From: an uncultured Eisenbergiella sp.
GTDB lineage: Bacteria; Bacillota; Clostridia; Lachnospirales; Lachnospiraceae
NCBI GenBank assembly: GCA_947626995.1
Contig: CANQUI010000015.1
Span: forward strand, 1-41,618
Length of the DNA stretch: 41,618 bases
Direction: 5' to 3'
Positions 21,959 to 30,484 of the stretch are shown here, piece after piece. Position numbers and translations under genes: made by a program. How positions within the stretch are numbered: position 1 is the stretch's first letter; every line of letters starts with the position of its first letter. Under the pieces are notes generated by a model, which saw nothing but the letters and a program-made list of their open reading frames with translations, was not told the DNA's origin and did no database searches.

Positions 21959-23272
21959 ATGAAAAAGCGTGTACTGGCATTGCTGATGACAGCCGCTATG
22001 GTTTCCACCATGTTGACCGCCTGCGGCGGCAGCGGATCCACCAGCACAGACACAACCACACCCGCAGCAGATGAGACGACTCCCGCTGCCGAGACCGAAG
22101 CGGCTACGCAGGCCCCTGAGGACATCGACTACGGCACCGGCGAGATCATGGTTTGGGTCGCAGAGAACGTGCAGGACTTTACCGAGGATCAGATCGCTGC
22201 ATTCCAGGAAGCAAACCCTCAGTTTGCCGGCTATACCGTAACGGTTCAGCCCGTAGGCGAAGGCGATGCTGCCAACAACATGCTCACCGACGTAGCAGGC
22301 GGCGCTGATATCTATGGTTTCGCACAGGATCAGCTGGCCCGTCTGATCAGCGCAGGCGCGATCGCACCTGTTACCGGTGACTATGCGACCTTTGTAAACG
22401 AGCAGAACGATGCAGGCGCAGCTGCGGCGGCTACGGTAGGGGATACCGTTTATGCGTTCCCTATTACCTCCGACAACGGCTACTTCCTGTATTATGACAG
22501 CAGCGTTGTAACCGATCCCACTTCTCTGGACGCCATCATCGCGGACTGCGAAGCGGCGAACAAGGGCTTCTACATGGAGATCAACTCCGGCTGGTATCAG
22601 CCTGCGTTCTTCTTCGGCGCCGGATGTACTCTGACCTATGAAGCGGATGCGGAAGGCAACTTCACCTCCTGCAATACCGACTATGCTTCCGAGAATGGTC
22701 TGGCAGCTCTGAAGGCGATGATCGCACTGCACAAGTCTCCTGCATTCACCAACGGTTCTGATCTTAGCAAAGCTACCAACCCTGGCGCTATCGTAGACGG
22801 CACCTGGGATGCGGGCGTAGCACAGGAGAAATTCGGCGACAATTACGCCTGCGCGAAACTGCCTTCCTTCACGGTAGACGGCAAGACCTATCCTCTGGGC
22901 GGCTTCGGCGGATTCAAGCTTATCGGCGTGAAGCCTCAGGAAGATGCCAACAAGTATCAGGTTTGCCTGGCTATGGCGCAGTTCCTGTCCAACGAAGAGA
23001 CGCAGCTGGCTCGTTATGAAGAGGCAGGCTGGGGTCCTTCCAACGTAGCGGCACAGCAGAGCGATGCGGTTAAGGCTGACGAGGCTCTGTCCGCACTGGC
23101 TGAGCAGCTGGCCAACACGATCCCTCAGGGTCAGTACCCGAACGACTACTGGTCATTGGCTACTTCCCTGGGCGATTCCATTATCGCCGGCGACTATGAC
23201 AACGCTTCCGATGACGACCTGATGAAGGTTCTGGAAGAGTTCCAGGCGACCTGTGAGTCTTACGCTCAGTAA
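21959..23272 (+). CDS. Sugar ABC transporter substrate-binding lipoprotein (family 1)
   Basis: A 437-residue extracellular solute-binding protein of the maltose/oligosaccharide group. The signal peptide ends in a lipobox LTAC (Cys22), followed by a Ser/Thr/Ala/Glu linker of about 40 residues that tethers it to the membrane. The mature fold shows typical motifs: GEIMVWVAENVQDF, YAFPITSDNGYFLYYD and GPSNVAAQ. Its codon use is visibly different from its neighbours (many GCA, GTA, CCT, GCT), as expected for a highly expressed binding protein. It opens an operon with two permeases, and a hairpin just after its stop could keep its message more abundant. Substrate cannot be fixed; maltodextrin or galacto-oligosaccharide are the best guesses from nearby enzymes. 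Confidence 0.93.
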   Translation: MKKRVLALLMTAAMVSTMLTACGGSGSTSTDTTTPAADETTPAAETEAATQAPEDIDYGTGEIMVWVAENVQDFTEDQIAAFQEANPQFAGYTVTVQPVGEGDAANNMLTDVAGGADIYGFAQDQLARLISAGAIAPVTGDYATFVNEQNDAGAAAAATVGDTVYAFPITSDNGYFLYYDSSVVTDPTSLDAIIADCEAANKGFYMEINSGWYQPAFFFGAGCTLTYEADAEGNFTSCNTDYASENGLAALKAMIALHKSPAFTNGSDLSKATNPGAIVDGTWDAGVAQEKFGDNYACAKLPSFTVDGKTYPLGGFGGFKLIGVKPQEDANKYQVCLAMAQFLSNEETQLARYEEAGWGPSNVAAQQSDAVKADEALSALAEQLANTIPQGQYPNDYWSLATSLGDSIIAGDYDNASDDDLMKVLEEFQATCESYAQ

Positions 23273-23386: not shown

Positions 23387-24790
23387 ATGAGCAAAGACAA
23401 AAAGCCCTCCGGTGCGGCGGGGAAGGTAACAGGCTTTTTTAAGTGGCTTGGGGCGGATCTGGCCGACATCGGAACAACATTTACCAAGGGCGACTGGAAA
23501 ACGAAGGTCTCCTTCCTTATCATGGGTTTCGGCCCGCTGATGAGAAAACAGTTCCTTCGCGGCGCGGCGTTTCTGCTGCTTGAGATTGCCTTTATTTATT
23601 ACATGGCGGCTTTCGGCATCGGATACCTGAAAGATATCACGACGCTGGGTACGTCGGGGAGAGGGTTTAATCCTGACGGAACCGTATCCTATGGCGACAA
23701 CAGCTTCCTGATCCTGTTGTTTGGTGTGCTGAGCATTATCCTGATTCTTTTGTTCCTGTATGTGTGGCGCCTTAACGTATACCAGAACAAGATCGGCGAG
23801 CAGATGCTCAGGGAAGGCAAAAAGCTTCCCTCCTCCAAGCAGGATTTCATGTCTCTTTTGGATGAAAACTTTGACAAGACCCTGATGGCGCTGCCTATGC
23901 TTGGCGTTTTCCTGTTCGTCATGCTGCCGATCATCTTCATGATCTGCGTGGCCTTTACGAACTATGACGCGAATCATCAGGCGCCGGCCAAGCTGTTTAC
24001 CTGGGTGGGATTTTCCAACTTTGCGAACCTGTTTTCCTTCGGTTCGACAGGCTTTGGCAAAACGTTTGTGTCGGTATTGATCTGGACGTTGGTCTGGGCG
24101 TTCTTTGCTACCTTCCTGAACTATTTCCTGGGGATGGCGGTTGCGATCCTGATCAACAAAAAAGGGATCAAGTTCAAAAAGCTGTGGCGTACCATCCTGG
24201 TTATGACCATCGCGGTGCCTCAGTTTGTATCCCTTTTGTATGTCGGTAAGATGTTCGCCGCGGACGGCCTGATCAACGGGTACCTGATGAAATGGGGGCT
24301 GATCAGTTCCGCCATTCCGTTCTGGGAGAATGCGACGCTGGCGAGGATCCTGGTCATTATTATCAATCTTTGGGTCGGAATTCCGTACGTGATGCTGATC
24401 TGTACGGGACTTTTGATGAACATTCCGGAGGATCTTTATGAGAGCGCCAAAATCGACGGCGCCAATCCCATCCAGATGTTCATTAAGATCACACTTCCTT
24501 ATATGCTGTTTGTAACGGGACCGTTCCTGCTGACGCAGTTTACCGGTAACCTGAACAACTTCAACGTCATCTTCCTGCTGACAACAGGAAAACCGCAGTC
24601 CATGAATCTGACGGGCGGCGCGGGGTACACCGACCTGCTGGTGACCTGGCTGTACAAGATGACGCTGGATCAGACCGACTACAAGATGGCGGCAGTCATC
24701 GGTATTATGGTCTTCATTGTGACAGCAGTCATTTCGTTGGTAGTATATAACGTCCTACCTTCAGTAAAAGATGAGGAGGGATTCCAATAA
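23387..24790 (+). CDS. Sugar ABC transporter permease, MalF type
   Basis: A 467-residue membrane subunit with an N-terminal extension of about 170 residues containing two extra hydrophobic segments, then a six-helix binding-protein-dependent transport domain. The EAA loop that docks the ATPase is visible as YESAKIDGANPIQMFIKITLP. Related to MalF, MdxF and GanP. It forms the channel with the MalG-type protein whose ATG overlaps its stop by one base (TAATG). No ATPase is encoded in the operon; MsmK at 1683-2786 is the likely partner. Start set by GGAGGGG ahead of 23387. Confidence 0.93.
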   Translation: MSKDKKPSGAAGKVTGFFKWLGADLADIGTTFTKGDWKTKVSFLIMGFGPLMRKQFLRGAAFLLLEIAFIYYMAAFGIGYLKDITTLGTSGRGFNPDGTVSYGDNSFLILLFGVLSIILILLFLYVWRLNVYQNKIGEQMLREGKKLPSSKQDFMSLLDENFDKTLMALPMLGVFLFVMLPIIFMICVAFTNYDANHQAPAKLFTWVGFSNFANLFSFGSTGFGKTFVSVLIWTLVWAFFATFLNYFLGMAVAILINKKGIKFKKLWRTILVMTIAVPQFVSLLYVGKMFAADGLINGYLMKWGLISSAIPFWENATLARILVIIINLWVGIPYVMLICTGLLMNIPEDLYESAKIDGANPIQMFIKITLPYMLFVTGPFLLTQFTGNLNNFNVIFLLTTGKPQSMNLTGGAGYTDLLVTWLYKMTLDQTDYKMAAVIGIMVFIVTAVISLVVYNVLPSVKDEEGFQ

Positions 24791-25662
24791 TGGCGAAAGA
24801 ACCGAAAGTGCATATGCAGCATAAAAAACTGAGCAACGCAATCGCATACGTCGTATTGATCCTGATCAGCATTATCTGGCTGTTCCCGTTCGTATGTCTG
24901 GTATTGCAGAGCTTCCGTTCCTATATCCTGGAGAGTGGCGGTATGGTAAATTATCTGCTGCCCAAGACCTTCTCCCTGGATTCCTATAAGTTCCTTTTCA
25001 GTAAGGACTGTCAGTTCTTCAGATGGTATGGCAATACCTTTATCATTGCGTTTTTTGTCACGATCTTTCAGACCATTTTCATTCTGAGCGTGAGTTACGC
25101 GCTGTCCAGGATGCGTTTTAAAGGCAGAGAGCTGCTGATGCGTCTCTGGCTCGTTCTGGGCATGTTCCCCGGATTCCTGAGCATGATCTGTCTGTACTTC
25201 CTGCTCAAAGAATTCGGCCTGACGCAGGAGGGCGCGATCCCCGGCCTGATCCTGATCGGATTTGCCAGTTCCGGCATGGGCTATTATGTATGTAAGGGAT
25301 ACTTCGATACGATCCCCAAGTCTCTGGACGAGGCGGCCCGGATCGACGGCGCCAACAGGGCGCAGGTATTTACCATCATGCTGATTCCGCTGTCCAAGCC
25401 CATCATCATTTATACCGCGCTGGTAGCCTTCATGGCTCCCTGGTGCGATTATATCTTCGCCTCTTACGTGGCCTTCGGTTATTCCGACAGCTACAACGTA
25501 GCGGTGGCTTTGAGACGTTGGGTATGGACAAACGACTATCAGGGGTATTTCACAAGATTCTGCGCAGGCGGCGTATTGGTGGCGATTCCCATTACGATTC
25601 TGTTCATGTGTCTGCAGAAATACTATGTGGAAGGCGTTACCGGCGGCGCTGTAAAGGGCTGA
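24790..25662 (+). CDS. Sugar ABC transporter permease, MalG type
   Basis: A 290-residue permease with six predicted membrane helices and the EAA motif LDEAARIDGANRAQVFTIMLIPLSKP. It pairs with the preceding MalF-type subunit, whose gene it overlaps by one base. Related to MalG, MdxG and GanQ. A terminator-like hairpin follows 15 bases after its stop, so the enzymes downstream are probably made at a lower level by readthrough. Confidence 0.94.
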   Translation: MAKEPKVHMQHKKLSNAIAYVVLILISIIWLFPFVCLVLQSFRSYILESGGMVNYLLPKTFSLDSYKFLFSKDCQFFRWYGNTFIIAFFVTIFQTIFILSVSYALSRMRFKGRELLMRLWLVLGMFPGFLSMICLYFLLKEFGLTQEGAIPGLILIGFASSGMGYYVCKGYFDTIPKSLDEAARIDGANRAQVFTIMLIPLSKPIIIYTALVAFMAPWCDYIFASYVAFGYSDSYNVAVALRRWVWTNDYQGYFTRFCAGGVLVAIPITILFMCLQKYYVEGVTGGAVKG

Positions 25663-25742: not shown

Positions 25743-27314
25743 ATGAGAAAGAAAAGATACCGTCTTTTGGCGGCGTTTCTGGTATTTGTGATCCTGTGTG
25801 GCTGCAGTGCATGCAAAAGCCGCACGTCTGCGCCGGACGACAATTACAGAAATTACTATGAGATCTTCGTTTACTCCTTTTACGATTCCAATCAGGATGG
25901 GATCGGGGACTTAAACGGGGTGACGCAGAAGCTGGATTATATCCGGGATATGGGATTTAACGGAATCTGGCTGATGCCCGTCATGCAGTCTCCCACCTAT
26001 CATAAATACGATGTGGCGGATTATTATTCCATTGACCGGGAATACGGAACAAACGAGGATTTCCGGAAGCTGTTGAAGGAATGTCACAAAAGAGGGATCC
26101 GGGTGCTGATGGATTTTGTAATCAATCATACCTCTTCTCAGAACCGGTGGTTTCTGGACGCCTGCGATTATCTGGAACAGCTTCCTGCAGGAAGCGAGCC
26201 GGACGCGTCGGTCTGTCCGTATGTGAATTATTATCATTTTACCAAAGAAAAAAAGGACGGAACCTATTATCCGGTGGGCCAAAGCGGCTGGTATTACGAG
26301 GGCTCCTTCTGGTCTGAGATGCCCGATCTGAACCTGGCCGACGAAAGGCTGCGCGCGGATCTGGAGGCGATCGCAAAATACTGGATCGACATGGGAGTGG
26401 ACGGATTCCGCATGGACGCGGCGCTGCACTTTGAAGAGGGGGATACGGCGTTTAATACCGAAACGCTCCGGTGGCTTTATCGCTATTGCAGGGAACTGAA
26501 CCCGCAGTTTTATATGGTTTCCGAGGTCTGGGCCAATGAGAACACCATTGCCGATTATTACGCCAGTATGACGCCCAGCATGTTCAATTTTGATGTGGCA
26601 GATGCGGAAGGCAAGCTGATCCGGGCGGCCCGGGGTAAGTACAAGGCCGAGATGTTTGTGGAGAGTATGCTCCGTTACCAGACGGATTTCGGACAGGCCA
26701 ATCCGGATTATATCGACGCGCCCTTCCTCACCAATCATGATATGGGACGGGTTTCCAATGTGCTGATGAAGGATCCCGACGATCTGAAAATGGCCTGCGG
26801 CCTGCTCATGACAATGAGCGGAAGCCCGTTTGTTTATTACGGCGAGGAGATCGGCCTGTGCGGTTCCGCAAAGAAGGATGAGGACAAACGGCTGCCCATG
26901 ATCTGGTCCGACACGGACAAAACGGGACAGACCGTGGGCCCTGTAGACGCCGACCCGGATATCGAGCAGTCTTTTCCCGGCGTCGAACAGCAGCTGGCCG
27001 ATCCGGATTCCATTCTGAACTATTATAAGAGGGCGCTGCGGCTCAGGAACGAAAATCCGGAGATCGCCCGGGGAATCATCGAGCCGGTGGAGTCGCTGAC
27101 CCTTGCGCATCAGGCGGCGATCCTCAAAACCTATGGGGAGGACAGGATCGGAATCGTCTATAATACCTCCGACGAAGTCATCGAGGTTGCGCTGGCCGGC
27201 AGTGAACTGGAGACGATGTCGGTGCGGGGCTATCTGACGCCGCACGACGATGCCGTCACCTTAAAAAACGGCGTGCTGACCCTGCCCGCCCAGTCGATAT
27301 GTGTCTTAAAATGA
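25743..27314 (+). CDS. GH13 alpha-amylase-family lipoprotein
   Basis: A 523-residue glycoside hydrolase family 13 enzyme anchored outside the cell: the signal peptide ends LCGC with Cys21 as the likely lipidated residue. All conserved regions are present: DFVINHTS (region I), GFRMDAALHF with nucleophile Asp225 (II), SEVWA with acid/base Glu261 (III) and FLTNHD with Asp333 (IV). A small C-terminal beta domain ends the protein. It should cut alpha-glucosidic bonds in starch-like oligosaccharides; subfamily and product are not clear. The ribosome binding site AAGGAGGAAAGG is strong. It follows the permease genes after a terminator and precedes the unassigned 610-residue protein by 22 bases. Confidence 0.92.
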   Translation: MRKKRYRLLAAFLVFVILCGCSACKSRTSAPDDNYRNYYEIFVYSFYDSNQDGIGDLNGVTQKLDYIRDMGFNGIWLMPVMQSPTYHKYDVADYYSIDREYGTNEDFRKLLKECHKRGIRVLMDFVINHTSSQNRWFLDACDYLEQLPAGSEPDASVCPYVNYYHFTKEKKDGTYYPVGQSGWYYEGSFWSEMPDLNLADERLRADLEAIAKYWIDMGVDGFRMDAALHFEEGDTAFNTETLRWLYRYCRELNPQFYMVSEVWANENTIADYYASMTPSMFNFDVADAEGKLIRAARGKYKAEMFVESMLRYQTDFGQANPDYIDAPFLTNHDMGRVSNVLMKDPDDLKMACGLLMTMSGSPFVYYGEEIGLCGSAKKDEDKRLPMIWSDTDKTGQTVGPVDADPDIEQSFPGVEQQLADPDSILNYYKRALRLRNENPEIARGIIEPVESLTLAHQAAILKTYGEDRIGIVYNTSDEVIEVALAGSELETMSVRGYLTPHDDAVTLKNGVLTLPAQSICVLK

Positions 27315-27336: not shown

Positions 27337-29169
27337 ATGAGCGAATTTATTCTCAACGTGATCCATCGTCCGGAGATGGTGCCGGAATACTCGGCCACCG
27401 TGACGGGACATGGCAAGGAAGAGGATATCGGAAACAAGAAGCTGCTGACGGAATCGTTGGATATTTTTAAGACGCAGCAGCGGTTGGCGCATGAAAACGG
27501 CTTAAAAACCACGATCCAGATGACCTATGCGTCGTTGTTCAACGAAGAAGCCATACAGCTTGCCAAGGACGACCATGAAACGTACGGCGACGAAATCGCC
27601 CTGTCCCTGCTGGGACTTCCCTGCGAGCAGTTTCGGGAAAAATATAAGACGAAGGACTTCTGTATCTGGATGTTTTCCATGGAAGACAAGAAGCGGATCG
27701 TGGACGATGTGTTCGGGAAGTTCTATGAGATTTTCGGATTCTATCCGGAATCTACCGGTTCCTATTATCTGGATGCCGATCTGATTAGCTACATCAAGAC
27801 CGCCTATCCGTCCGTCAAATGCGCCGTGGCCACCTGCTGGGAGGAAGGGCCCAAAGCCTACCATACCTGCAACAATTCCTGGTATACGCTCTTTGACGGC
27901 GGCCCGTGGGCGCCGTGGATCCCGTCGAAGCAAAACACCCACGCACCGGCGGCCAACCGGGAGGAGGACAGCGGCATCGTGGCGATCCCGCATCTTTCCC
28001 GGGATCTGCTGGCCTGTTACGACGGAAACGGTTCCAATTTCGGCACGCATCCGCAGAATGTTCTGCGCGGCATGATCTACGACTCCAAGACCTGGGAATA
28101 TCCGTATTTGTATAACCTGATCGATCAGTACCGGGCGCAGGAAAAATATAACAACGGCTACGCCTACAACATGATGTTCGTAGGTCCCGGCTGGATGAAC
28201 AAGATGGGCCGCTGGGAGGCGCCGTATGAACTTCTGGAGAAATCCTATTCCGACGGATGCAAATATTACGGTCAGCTAAAGCGCGAGGGCAAGCTGATCG
28301 ATATGACCATGTCCGAATTCGCGGATTACTACCGGCAGAAAAAGAGCTATACGGAGCCGGAGTGCGCGCTGTGGCGGGATATTCTTTACGGATCCGACAA
28401 ACAGCTGTTCTGGTATACGGATCCGTATATGCGCGTAGGCGTCAATATGGATCAGGGCGGCGCCATCGTGGATCTGCGGCCTTACGCGGCGAAGCTGCGC
28501 TGGGAGGTGGGGATCGGCACAAAGCATGTGCAGGACGCTTCCTATCCGTTTTTGATCCAGGAGAAATACCGCGCCGGGTATTTTACCCACTATGCCGGAG
28601 AAGGAACCGTCCGCAGCGCCAAGCTGTGCTATCAGGGAGAAGAAGTGGATCTGTGTCTGTGCCGGACAAAGGCGCATTTCTCCCGGGAAGGCAATACCCG
28701 CGTGCTGACCCTGGATCCGGTGACCATTGAATTTTCGGATCTGACGGTACAGCTGCAGACGAAGGAATTCTTCGAGGAGGGTTCCGGTTCGGTGAAGATA
28801 GAGCGGACCATCCTTTCCATGAGCGATCCTGCGGCAGAGGTGGAGTTAAACGAGTACATGGTTGCCTGTTACGGGACCACCGAGTATCCCGAGGATATGA
28901 CCGGCATTTTGCTGACCTGCGAGGGAGAGACCAAAAAGAGCATTGTCTACGAGTACAAGTGCAGGGAAGAAAGCCTGGCGGACGCCAGCGTCGTATCGGC
29001 GGTGGTGCCGCCCATTGAGACGAAGGTTTCCATGACCCAGACCGGCGGCGGAACGGGATATGTCCGGGAAGGGTATGCGTTTTCTCCGATGTTTACGCTG
29101 GGATTCAAAAAGAAGGTTACGGATAAGGAGGTGTACGCCACATGGCTCAATCTGGAAAGGGCAAATTAA
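27337..29169 (+). CDS. Uncharacterised 610-residue protein, possible carbohydrate enzyme
   Basis: A large cytoplasmic protein with no signal peptide. The first ~330 residues look like a beta/alpha-barrel of the NodB or GH57-like kind: KTTIQMTYASLF, DEIALSLLGLP and FGFYPESTGSYYLDADLISYIK are spaced like barrel strands and helices, and PWAPWIPSKQNTHAP is an aromatic-rich loop. The remaining ~270 residues appear beta-sandwich-like. I do not recognise the family, and catalytic residues are unproven; conserved-looking acids include E143 and D149 of the FYPESTGSYYLDAD stretch. It lies between a GH13 and a GH53 gene and its 3' end overlaps the zinc-ribbon gene by 28 bases, so a role in handling imported oligosaccharides is likely. 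Start has AAAAGGAGAAAGAGAC upstream. Confidence 0.75.
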   Translation: MSEFILNVIHRPEMVPEYSATVTGHGKEEDIGNKKLLTESLDIFKTQQRLAHENGLKTTIQMTYASLFNEEAIQLAKDDHETYGDEIALSLLGLPCEQFREKYKTKDFCIWMFSMEDKKRIVDDVFGKFYEIFGFYPESTGSYYLDADLISYIKTAYPSVKCAVATCWEEGPKAYHTCNNSWYTLFDGGPWAPWIPSKQNTHAPAANREEDSGIVAIPHLSRDLLACYDGNGSNFGTHPQNVLRGMIYDSKTWEYPYLYNLIDQYRAQEKYNNGYAYNMMFVGPGWMNKMGRWEAPYELLEKSYSDGCKYYGQLKREGKLIDMTMSEFADYYRQKKSYTEPECALWRDILYGSDKQLFWYTDPYMRVGVNMDQGGAIVDLRPYAAKLRWEVGIGTKHVQDASYPFLIQEKYRAGYFTHYAGEGTVRSAKLCYQGEEVDLCLCRTKAHFSREGNTRVLTLDPVTIEFSDLTVQLQTKEFFEEGSGSVKIERTILSMSDPAAEVELNEYMVACYGTTEYPEDMTGILLTCEGETKKSIVYEYKCREESLADASVVSAVVPPIETKVSMTQTGGGTGYVREGYAFSPMFTLGFKKKVTDKEVYATWLNLERAN

Positions 29170-29360
29170 ATTACCGGTGTCCGTCCTGCTTTATGCGGGA
29201 TCTGGATATCGACATGTTTTACGATAAGGAAAAGGGAGAATATTATTGCCTGCGCTGCCAGTTTACGGGAACGGAGGAAGAGGTTTTAGCCGGCAATGAA
29301 ATGGTGCGTACCAAGTATAAGGCGATGCGGAAACGGTTTACAAAATTTGACTTTGACTGA
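29142..29360 (+). CDS. Small zinc-ribbon protein in the carbohydrate operon
   Basis: A 72-residue protein with C13PSC16 and C36LRC39, the four ligands of a zinc ribbon, followed by a basic helical tail (MVRTKYKAMRKRF). It overlaps the 3' end of the 610-residue protein gene by 28 bases and has its own strong site, AAGGAGG, eight bases before the ATG. Translational coupling suggests it acts with that protein. It may be a nucleic-acid- or protein-binding accessory; the exact function is unknown. Confidence 0.8.
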   Translation: MAQSGKGKLNYRCPSCFMRDLDIDMFYDKEKGEYYCLRCQFTGTEEEVLAGNEMVRTKYKAMRKRFTKFDFD

Positions 29361-29377: not shown

Positions 29378-30484
29378 ATGGACTTTGTAAAGGGAATGGA
29401 CGTTTCCACCATGATCGAGCTGGAACGTCTGCATGCCAGATACTACGACGGCGGGCAGGAGAATACGCTGTTGGCCATTTTGAAAAAATACGGCGTGAAT
29501 ATGATTCGGGTCCGTCTCTGGAACGATCCGTACTCCGAGATGGGTGAGTCCTACGGCGCCGGCGGAAATGATTTTCCCACCAGCCTGGAGATTGCCAGAA
29601 GAGCCACGCAGGAAGGGATGGAAGTGCTGCTGGATTTTCATTACAGCGATTTCTGGACGGATCCCCAAAAGCAGTTTAAGCCCAAAGCGTGGCGGAACCT
29701 GAGCGTGGAGGGACTGGAACGGGCGGTATATGAATATACCCGCGATACCGTCGCCGCCTTTTTGGAAAACGGCGTGAACCTGACGATGGTTCAGGTGGGC
29801 AACGAGCTGACCTTCGGCCTTCTGTGGCCGGAGGGGAAAACGCCCCATTACGACAACATCGCCCGGTTTGTAAACGCCGGGATCCGCGGCGTAAGAGACG
29901 GGGCCGGACAAAAGGACATCCGCGTGATGCTCCATCTGGACAACGGCGGCAACAACGCGCTTTACCGTACCTGGTTTGACGAATTCACAAAACGGGGAGA
30001 GGATTTCGACCTCATCGGATTGTCCTATTATCCGCTCTGGCACGGCAAAATGGGACAGCTTCAGGCGAATATGGAGGATATCGCAAAGCGTTTCGATAAG
30101 GATCTGATCGTTGTGGAAACCTCGGCGGGCTTTTCCATGGAAGATTACAGCGCGTATGAAAAGCTTTCTCCCAAGGAGAGAAAAGGCTATGCCTCCAGGC
30201 CGCCGCTGACCGAAACGGTGGAATATCCGCTGACCAGACAGGGACAGTCGGATTTTATCCGGGATCTGATCCGGGTCATCCGGGGGATCGAAAACGGACG
30301 CGGCAAAGGATTCTTCTGGTGGGAGCCGGCCTGGATCCCGGTGCCCGGAAGCGGCTGGGCGACGCCCGCCTCCCTGCGTTACATGAACGATCCGGGCCCC
30401 TGCGGAAACGAATGGGCCAACCAGGCGCTCTTCGATTATGAAGGAAACGCGCTGCCGGCCCTGGAACAAATTCGGGAAGGATAA
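29378..30484 (+). CDS. GH53 endo-beta-1,4-galactanase, apparently cytoplasmic
   Basis: A 368-residue glycoside hydrolase family 53 enzyme. MIRVRLWNDP, VLLDFHYSDFWTDP and MVQVGNELTFGLLWP are family hallmarks; Glu143 is the predicted acid/base and Glu247 in LIVVETSAG the nucleophile. It should cleave beta-1,4-galactan or arabinogalactan I side chains. Unlike most GH53 enzymes (for example Bacillus GanB/GalA) it has no signal peptide, starting directly MDFVKGMDVSTM, so it probably acts on oligosaccharides brought in by the upstream transporter. It ends the operon and is convergent with ahcY, 13 bases away. Confidence 0.94.
   Translation: MDFVKGMDVSTMIELERLHARYYDGGQENTLLAILKKYGVNMIRVRLWNDPYSEMGESYGAGGNDFPTSLEIARRATQEGMEVLLDFHYSDFWTDPQKQFKPKAWRNLSVEGLERAVYEYTRDTVAAFLENGVNLTMVQVGNELTFGLLWPEGKTPHYDNIARFVNAGIRGVRDGAGQKDIRVMLHLDNGGNNALYRTWFDEFTKRGEDFDLIGLSYYPLWHGKMGQLQANMEDIAKRFDKDLIVVETSAGFSMEDYSAYEKLSPKERKGYASRPPLTETVEYPLTRQGQSDFIRDLIRVIRGIENGRGKGFFWWEPAWIPVPGSGWATPASLRYMNDPGPCGNEWANQALFDYEGNALPALEQIREG

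Follow-up and report, generated by a model that had tools for sequence, protein, structure and literature searches.

The window, by which we mean the whole analysed stretch of 41,618 nucleotides from an uncultured Eisenbergiella sp., contains a gene for a 610-residue protein without a family name, lying among genes of sugar uptake and hydrolysis (Table 1). The earlier note had described the surroundings as a glycan operon, and indeed the large gene is surrounded by genes for a GH13 protein, a GH53 protein, an ABC sugar-binding protein and two open reading frames that read as sugar permeases. The large gene does lie between the GH13 and GH53 genes, as placed earlier, but it is not directly next to GH53, since an overlooked open reading frame for a zinc-ribbon protein intervenes. 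The galactan system GanSPQ-GanB of Bacillus subtilis combines ABC-type uptake of galacto-oligosaccharides with a GH53 enzyme, and the window resembles it in both respects; its binding protein is weakly GanS-like (43.5 bits with the NCBIfam GanS model, cut-off 700). To our knowledge, the genes for the 610-residue and zinc-ribbon proteins are an addition not known from the Bacillus galactan system. The same genome has a LacZ-type gene and a further GH53 gene at other places. Despite the galactan locus, the C-terminal domain of GalT (PF02744) was not found in this genome, which is 95% complete, consistent with either an assembly gap or another galactose route. The lipoprotein-like GH13 gene directly upstream of the pair is odd in a galactan locus; outside any systematic count, a GH13 gene next to the large gene was observed only in the window and at one divergent locus (L166), where it likewise lies upstream.

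Table 1. Genes and features around the 610-residue protein in the window
Feature	Position	Strand	Basis
ABC sugar-binding protein, weakly GanS-like	21959..23272	+	PF13416, E 5.8e-22
Putative ABC sugar permease	23387..24790	+	ORF; same-cluster relatives at other loci
Putative ABC sugar permease	24790..25662	+	ORF; same-cluster relatives at other loci
GH13 protein, lipoprotein-like N-terminus (lipobox by eye)	25743..27314	+	PF00128, E 1.3e-83
610-residue protein without family name, large partner of the pair	27337..29169	+	ORF; 324/610 positions invariant (81 rows)
AAGGAGGTG, predicted ribosome-binding site of the zinc-ribbon gene	29125..29133	+	Within the 610-residue coding sequence; putative role
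72-residue Cys4 zinc-ribbon protein (CPSC...CLRC)	29142..29360	+	Sequence; 28 nt overlap with the 610-residue gene
GH53 endo-beta-1,4-galactanase-type protein, no signal peptide	29378..30484	+	PF07745, E 1.4e-115; N-terminus read

With 610 uninterrupted codons, the large gene is a real one, as the earlier note had it, and its product is still unassigned, as searches of Pfam, NCBIfam and PDB sequences gave no match over the cut-off. The top Pfam match, to GIDE (E 0.2), fell below the cut-off and was judged to be due to chance, while NCBIfam, and phmmer against PDB with the protein as a single sequence, returned nothing at E ≤ 10. Among 14 diverse members of the family, Pfam recognized chitobiase C-terminal-type domains in three and gave otherwise sub-threshold matches only, and NCBIfam matched neither four homologues nor the zinc-ribbon partner. 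The cytoplasmic location proposed earlier is reasonable because the protein lacks a strongly hydrophobic stretch, with a peak 19-residue hydropathy of 0.92 and no sign of export.

Relatives of the large protein are encoded in at least 586 of the 592 pattern-matched stretches listed from genome_contigs, and the best 80 of these relatives, with 77–92% identity in the best segment, were kept. The invariant positions given in Table 1 extend across the whole protein; together with the number of stretches that encode a relative, they exclude a chance open reading frame. Over 84 rows, including two remote homologues, fourfold-degenerate sites differed from the window at a median of 59%, while amino-acid identity had a median of 85%. 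Since the silent sites have diverged and the protein has been kept, the gene is old and under strong purifying selection. The large protein was also more conserved than GH53 at 49 of 49 loci with a clear GH53 (medians 84.8% vs. 62.5%). Alignment A2 joined 62 of the 80 retrieved loci with the window.

The zinc-ribbon gene begins in the last codons of the large gene, in another frame and 8 nt behind AAGGAGGTG, and relatives have purine-rich sites at the equivalent position. We compared 82 homologous loci, namely the best 80 of the at least 586 from genome_contigs and two from other genomes. The partner was present at 80 of them, always starting with ATG and sharing exactly 28 nt with the large gene; at the remaining two the contig stops soon after the large gene, 64 nt past it in L049 and 7 nt in L075. 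A fusion of the two genes by a -1 frameshift, considered by eye, was rejected because in 80/80 the small frame has an ATG and a ribosome site to itself. The small protein is under purifying selection of its own (median identity 81%). Its two CxxC knuckles (C13, C16, C36, C39) are invariant in 12 diverse rows, as are R12, P14 and D22, and a basic C-terminal stretch is conserved. The cysteine pattern suggests that it binds zinc; among known zinc-ribbon models, the top Pfam match was under the cut-off (E 0.09) and NCBIfam had none.

The two genes also occur together across genomes. In 299 Lachnospiraceae genomes, sampled at one per genus, the large-protein profile matched 42 genomes and the small protein 41, with both present in 40. 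The two large-protein matches left out of the pair count (G015 and G384) are remote, partnerless homologues of another clade, and the extra zinc-ribbon match (G411), with E 9e-4 and lying inside an 892-codon frame, was set aside as chance. Hence, all 40 genomes with a window-type large protein also carry the zinc ribbon. Taken together, the sequence comparisons argue strongly for a pairing of the two proteins and, as their genes overlap and co-occur, the proteins probably work as one unit. In 299 genomes of the phylum, profile A1 matched only the genome of the window itself, but the more diverse profile A3 matched 15 of 245 genomes of the class, so the phylum result with A1 understates the spread. 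Among close relatives the pair is patchy, since none of 12 genomes of the same genus (G001–G012, some incomplete) had a full-length orthologue; four of these genomes (G001, G005, G010, G012) have remote homologues only. In one genome (G537:C3:172270-175469), both the large gene and the adjoining GH53 gene are in two pieces and the zinc-ribbon gene is whole, the splits reflecting either sequencing error or decay.

With a broader search, divergent members also emerged from other families within the class. Window-type large proteins down to 32–38% identity had an overlapping zinc-ribbon frame in every row, and in these divergent pairs the overlap is 19–34 nt, with a purine-rich site ahead of the zinc-ribbon frame; at one locus (L172), an additional ATG further upstream has no such site. 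In a tree of 25 rows, one branch with support 100/100 separates the 12 rows that have the partner from 13 that lack it, each of the latter having no less than 1,760 nt available for a zinc-ribbon frame. One row (L100), whose contig ends 2 nt past the gene, was excluded from the tree and the counts, and L170 is a long branch whose placement inside its clade is unsure. Profile comparison shows homology between the two clades (hhalign probability 99.6%, E 7.8e-25, 415 columns). The sister clade (L092–L097, L138–L140, L163–L165, L167 and a Parabacteroides homologue) has N7, E86, D146, C167 and D223 in common with the window family, but differs from it in lacking the zinc ribbon and, in some members, in having chitobiase C-terminal-type domains. 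Rhamnosidase, GH2 and GH3 genes are among its neighbours. Three sister-clade proteins (L092, L093, L095) are approximately 800–930 residues long, with chitobiase/Fn3-type domains at the C-terminus and N-terminal halves without a Pfam match.

The five common residues are invariant over 14 diverse rows of both clades, although D146 is replaced by S in one row of the zinc-ribbon clade. They include three acids (E86, D146, D223); the earlier note had named a conserved acidic pair as a supporting sign. The zinc-ribbon clade additionally keeps H52, E169, E170, H219, R222, H238, D263 and R381. The conserved residues are compatible with a putative enzyme pocket; the NodB/GH57-like barrel and beta-sandwich of the earlier note are likewise putative. 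Models of GH57 and GH38-like enzymes in Pfam were matched by neither the 610-residue protein nor the 14 members.

Profile searches, which the earlier note had proposed as a check, did point to a family with a solved structure, DUF3863, from a Bacteroidota sugar-uptake locus. Searching PDB by hmmsearch with the A3 profile, built from 14 diverse rows, we found 3LM3 at E 9e-5; the A1, A5 and A6 profiles gave insignificant values (E 0.25, 0.79 and 0.16, respectively), and with A5 it ranked below designed repeat proteins. The designed propellers matched in the A5 search were judged to be chance, as no single stretch passes alone. The 3LM3 protein is the DUF3863 protein of Parabacteroides distasonis (phmmer E 0, residues 30–477). 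When this protein was compared by hhalign, the 14-row profile gave a probability of 93% and the zinc-ribbon clade alone 85%, against 0.4% for GH53, the one control used. Profile similarity between the 610-residue family and DUF3863/DUF3864 (PF12979, PF12980) covers approximately 230 columns, in which YGDE (E86), D223 and N..RG (N241, R244, G245) align, whereas 3LM3 lacks both D146 and the CxEE motif. On a P. distasonis plasmid (NZ_OY725801.1), a sister-clade homologue overlaps the DUF3863 gene in a SusCD/GH2 locus (L174:5812-8935), so that DUF3863, too, adjoins a homologue of the 610-residue family in a sugar-uptake locus; unlike in the window, no zinc-ribbon frame was found in this stretch. 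The P. distasonis homologue has a lipoprotein-like start, and with the DUF3863 gene it looks like a tandem of distant relatives; searched alone, it had no PDB relative. The PF12979 model (cut-off 27 bits) gave no row at E ≤ 10 for the 610-residue protein or any of the 14 A3 members. A PF12979 scan of 41 relatives also gave no match, but is uninformative because the model was equally silent in 14 controls. We therefore regard the family as a remote relative of DUF3863 with a homologous core region, rather than a member, as judged from the profiles and the missing PF12979 match. A literature search for DUF3863 found no paper and, judging by titles, one for 3LM3 or BDI_3119 found none about the protein.

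The neighbourhoods of the pair bear on its possible substrates. In the 82 clustered loci, where cluster representatives were typed by Pfam, GH53 occurs at 54, LacZ-type GH2 at 33 and GH42 at 13 plus another 3 where the name rests on similarity; genes for GalT (16), AraC (27) and LacI (27) also recur. At least 66 of the 82 loci have GH53, LacZ-type GH2 or GH42 near the large gene, a lower bound because simple gene calling missed GH53 in the window and at L076; L003, whose own large gene was missed, was left out of these counts. Among the sampled Lachnospiraceae, GH53 was over the cut-off in 35 of the 40 pair genomes and in 35 of 259 others (Fisher p 7e-21), four genomes with matches under the cut-off having been dropped. 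Five pair genomes lack GH53; in four of them the pair adjoins other sugar genes, namely GH2-type LacZ relatives (G390, G592), a melibiase-like gene (G481) and an alpha-L-fucosidase gene (G363); in the fifth (G027), no sugar hydrolase was identified nearby. Divergent pairs similarly adjoin melibiase/raffinose-synthase-type (GH36-like) genes (L169, L170) and GH29 fucosidase genes, which likewise act on galacto-configured sugars, or have GH2, GH35 and GH53-like genes (L161) or GH13 and GH53-like genes (L166) nearby. No sugar hydrolase was identified next to the pair at L099 and L168, and no typed one at L171/L172. Galacto-configured sugars are mostly the common theme of the pair loci, with these exceptions. 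Of the galactan- or glucan-derived substrates proposed earlier, the gene neighbourhood favours galactans and galactosides over glucans.

Our preferred reading, to which we assign a probability of roughly 45%, is that the 610- and 72-residue proteins form a translationally coupled unit, probably a stable complex, and that the large one is an intracellular carbohydrate-active enzyme, most likely a glycosidase of galacto-oligosaccharides; its fold, catalysis and substrate, like the physical complex and zinc binding, we infer from sequence. The overlap would couple translation, so that both products would be synthesized in proportionate amounts and then assemble. Galacto-oligosaccharides would be imported by the ABC transporter and then acted on by the pair in the cytoplasm, where GH53 and beta-galactosidases would work too, with the zinc ribbon as a structural or regulatory subunit that may stabilize or complete the large enzyme. 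Somewhat more tentative is the fuller proposal of a two-component enzyme, in which a new glycosidase family, deeply related to DUF3863, would depend for its activity or assembly on a dedicated zinc-ribbon subunit from an overlapping gene and would serve many gut Lachnospiraceae in the use of galacto-configured glycans. Several observations fit the preferred reading less well: the link to 3LM3 is weak for some profiles and absent in the single-sequence PDB search, D146 is not kept in DUF3863, five of 40 pair genomes lack GH53, and the pairs at L099 and L168 have no identified hydrolase as neighbour.

The main rival, which we regard as unlikely, is that the large protein binds galacto-oligosaccharides without turnover and the zinc ribbon signals to RNA polymerase, DNA or an enzyme. 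Binding to nucleic acids or proteins is common among zinc ribbons, and such a role would suit both the conserved basic C-terminal stretch of the small protein and the spread of invariant positions over the whole of the large one; however, 27 of the 82 loci already have an AraC-type regulator and 27 a LacI-type one, and the sister clade keeps E86, D146 and D223 even without a zinc ribbon. Another alternative to a glycosidase is a sugar isomerase, epimerase or mutarotase whose substrates would be galactose-type sugars after their release. The neighbours act on galactose and L-fucose-type sugars, as might be expected around a step common to several pathways, and the sister-clade gene at L097 adjoins a GH78-type rhamnosidase gene, but neither Pfam nor NCBIfam gave a match to a known isomerase family, and we consider this improbable. 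A third rival, the deacetylase option of the earlier note, is a NodB-kind deacetylase or esterase removing acetyl groups from imported oligosaccharides. The depositors of 3LM3 reportedly labelled it a putative glycoside hydrolase/deacetylase (the database entry reads 'uncharacterized protein'), and H52, H219 and H238, which bear on the Asp-His-His metal site of NodB-type enzymes, are invariant within the zinc-ribbon clade. Against this, no histidine position is conserved throughout the 14 rows of the two clades, and the Pfam deacetylase models, including NodB-type ones, matched neither the 610-residue protein nor the 14 members. We consider it the least probable of these readings.

Butyrate-producing gut bacteria feed to a large extent on galacto-oligosaccharides and on the galactan side chains of pectin. 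GH53/GH2 arabinogalactan loci of Roseburia and Eubacterium rectale are listed in one paper (PMC5320581), where uncoloured hypothetical genes are mentioned for the figures. The 610-residue family has no name in Pfam or NCBIfam and is present in 40 of 299 Lachnospiraceae genomes and in at least 586 of the genome_contigs stretches. If the preferred reading is true, it would be unusual for a sugar enzyme to have an obligate zinc-ribbon partner encoded by an overlapping gene, and the large gene expressed alone may yield an inactive protein.
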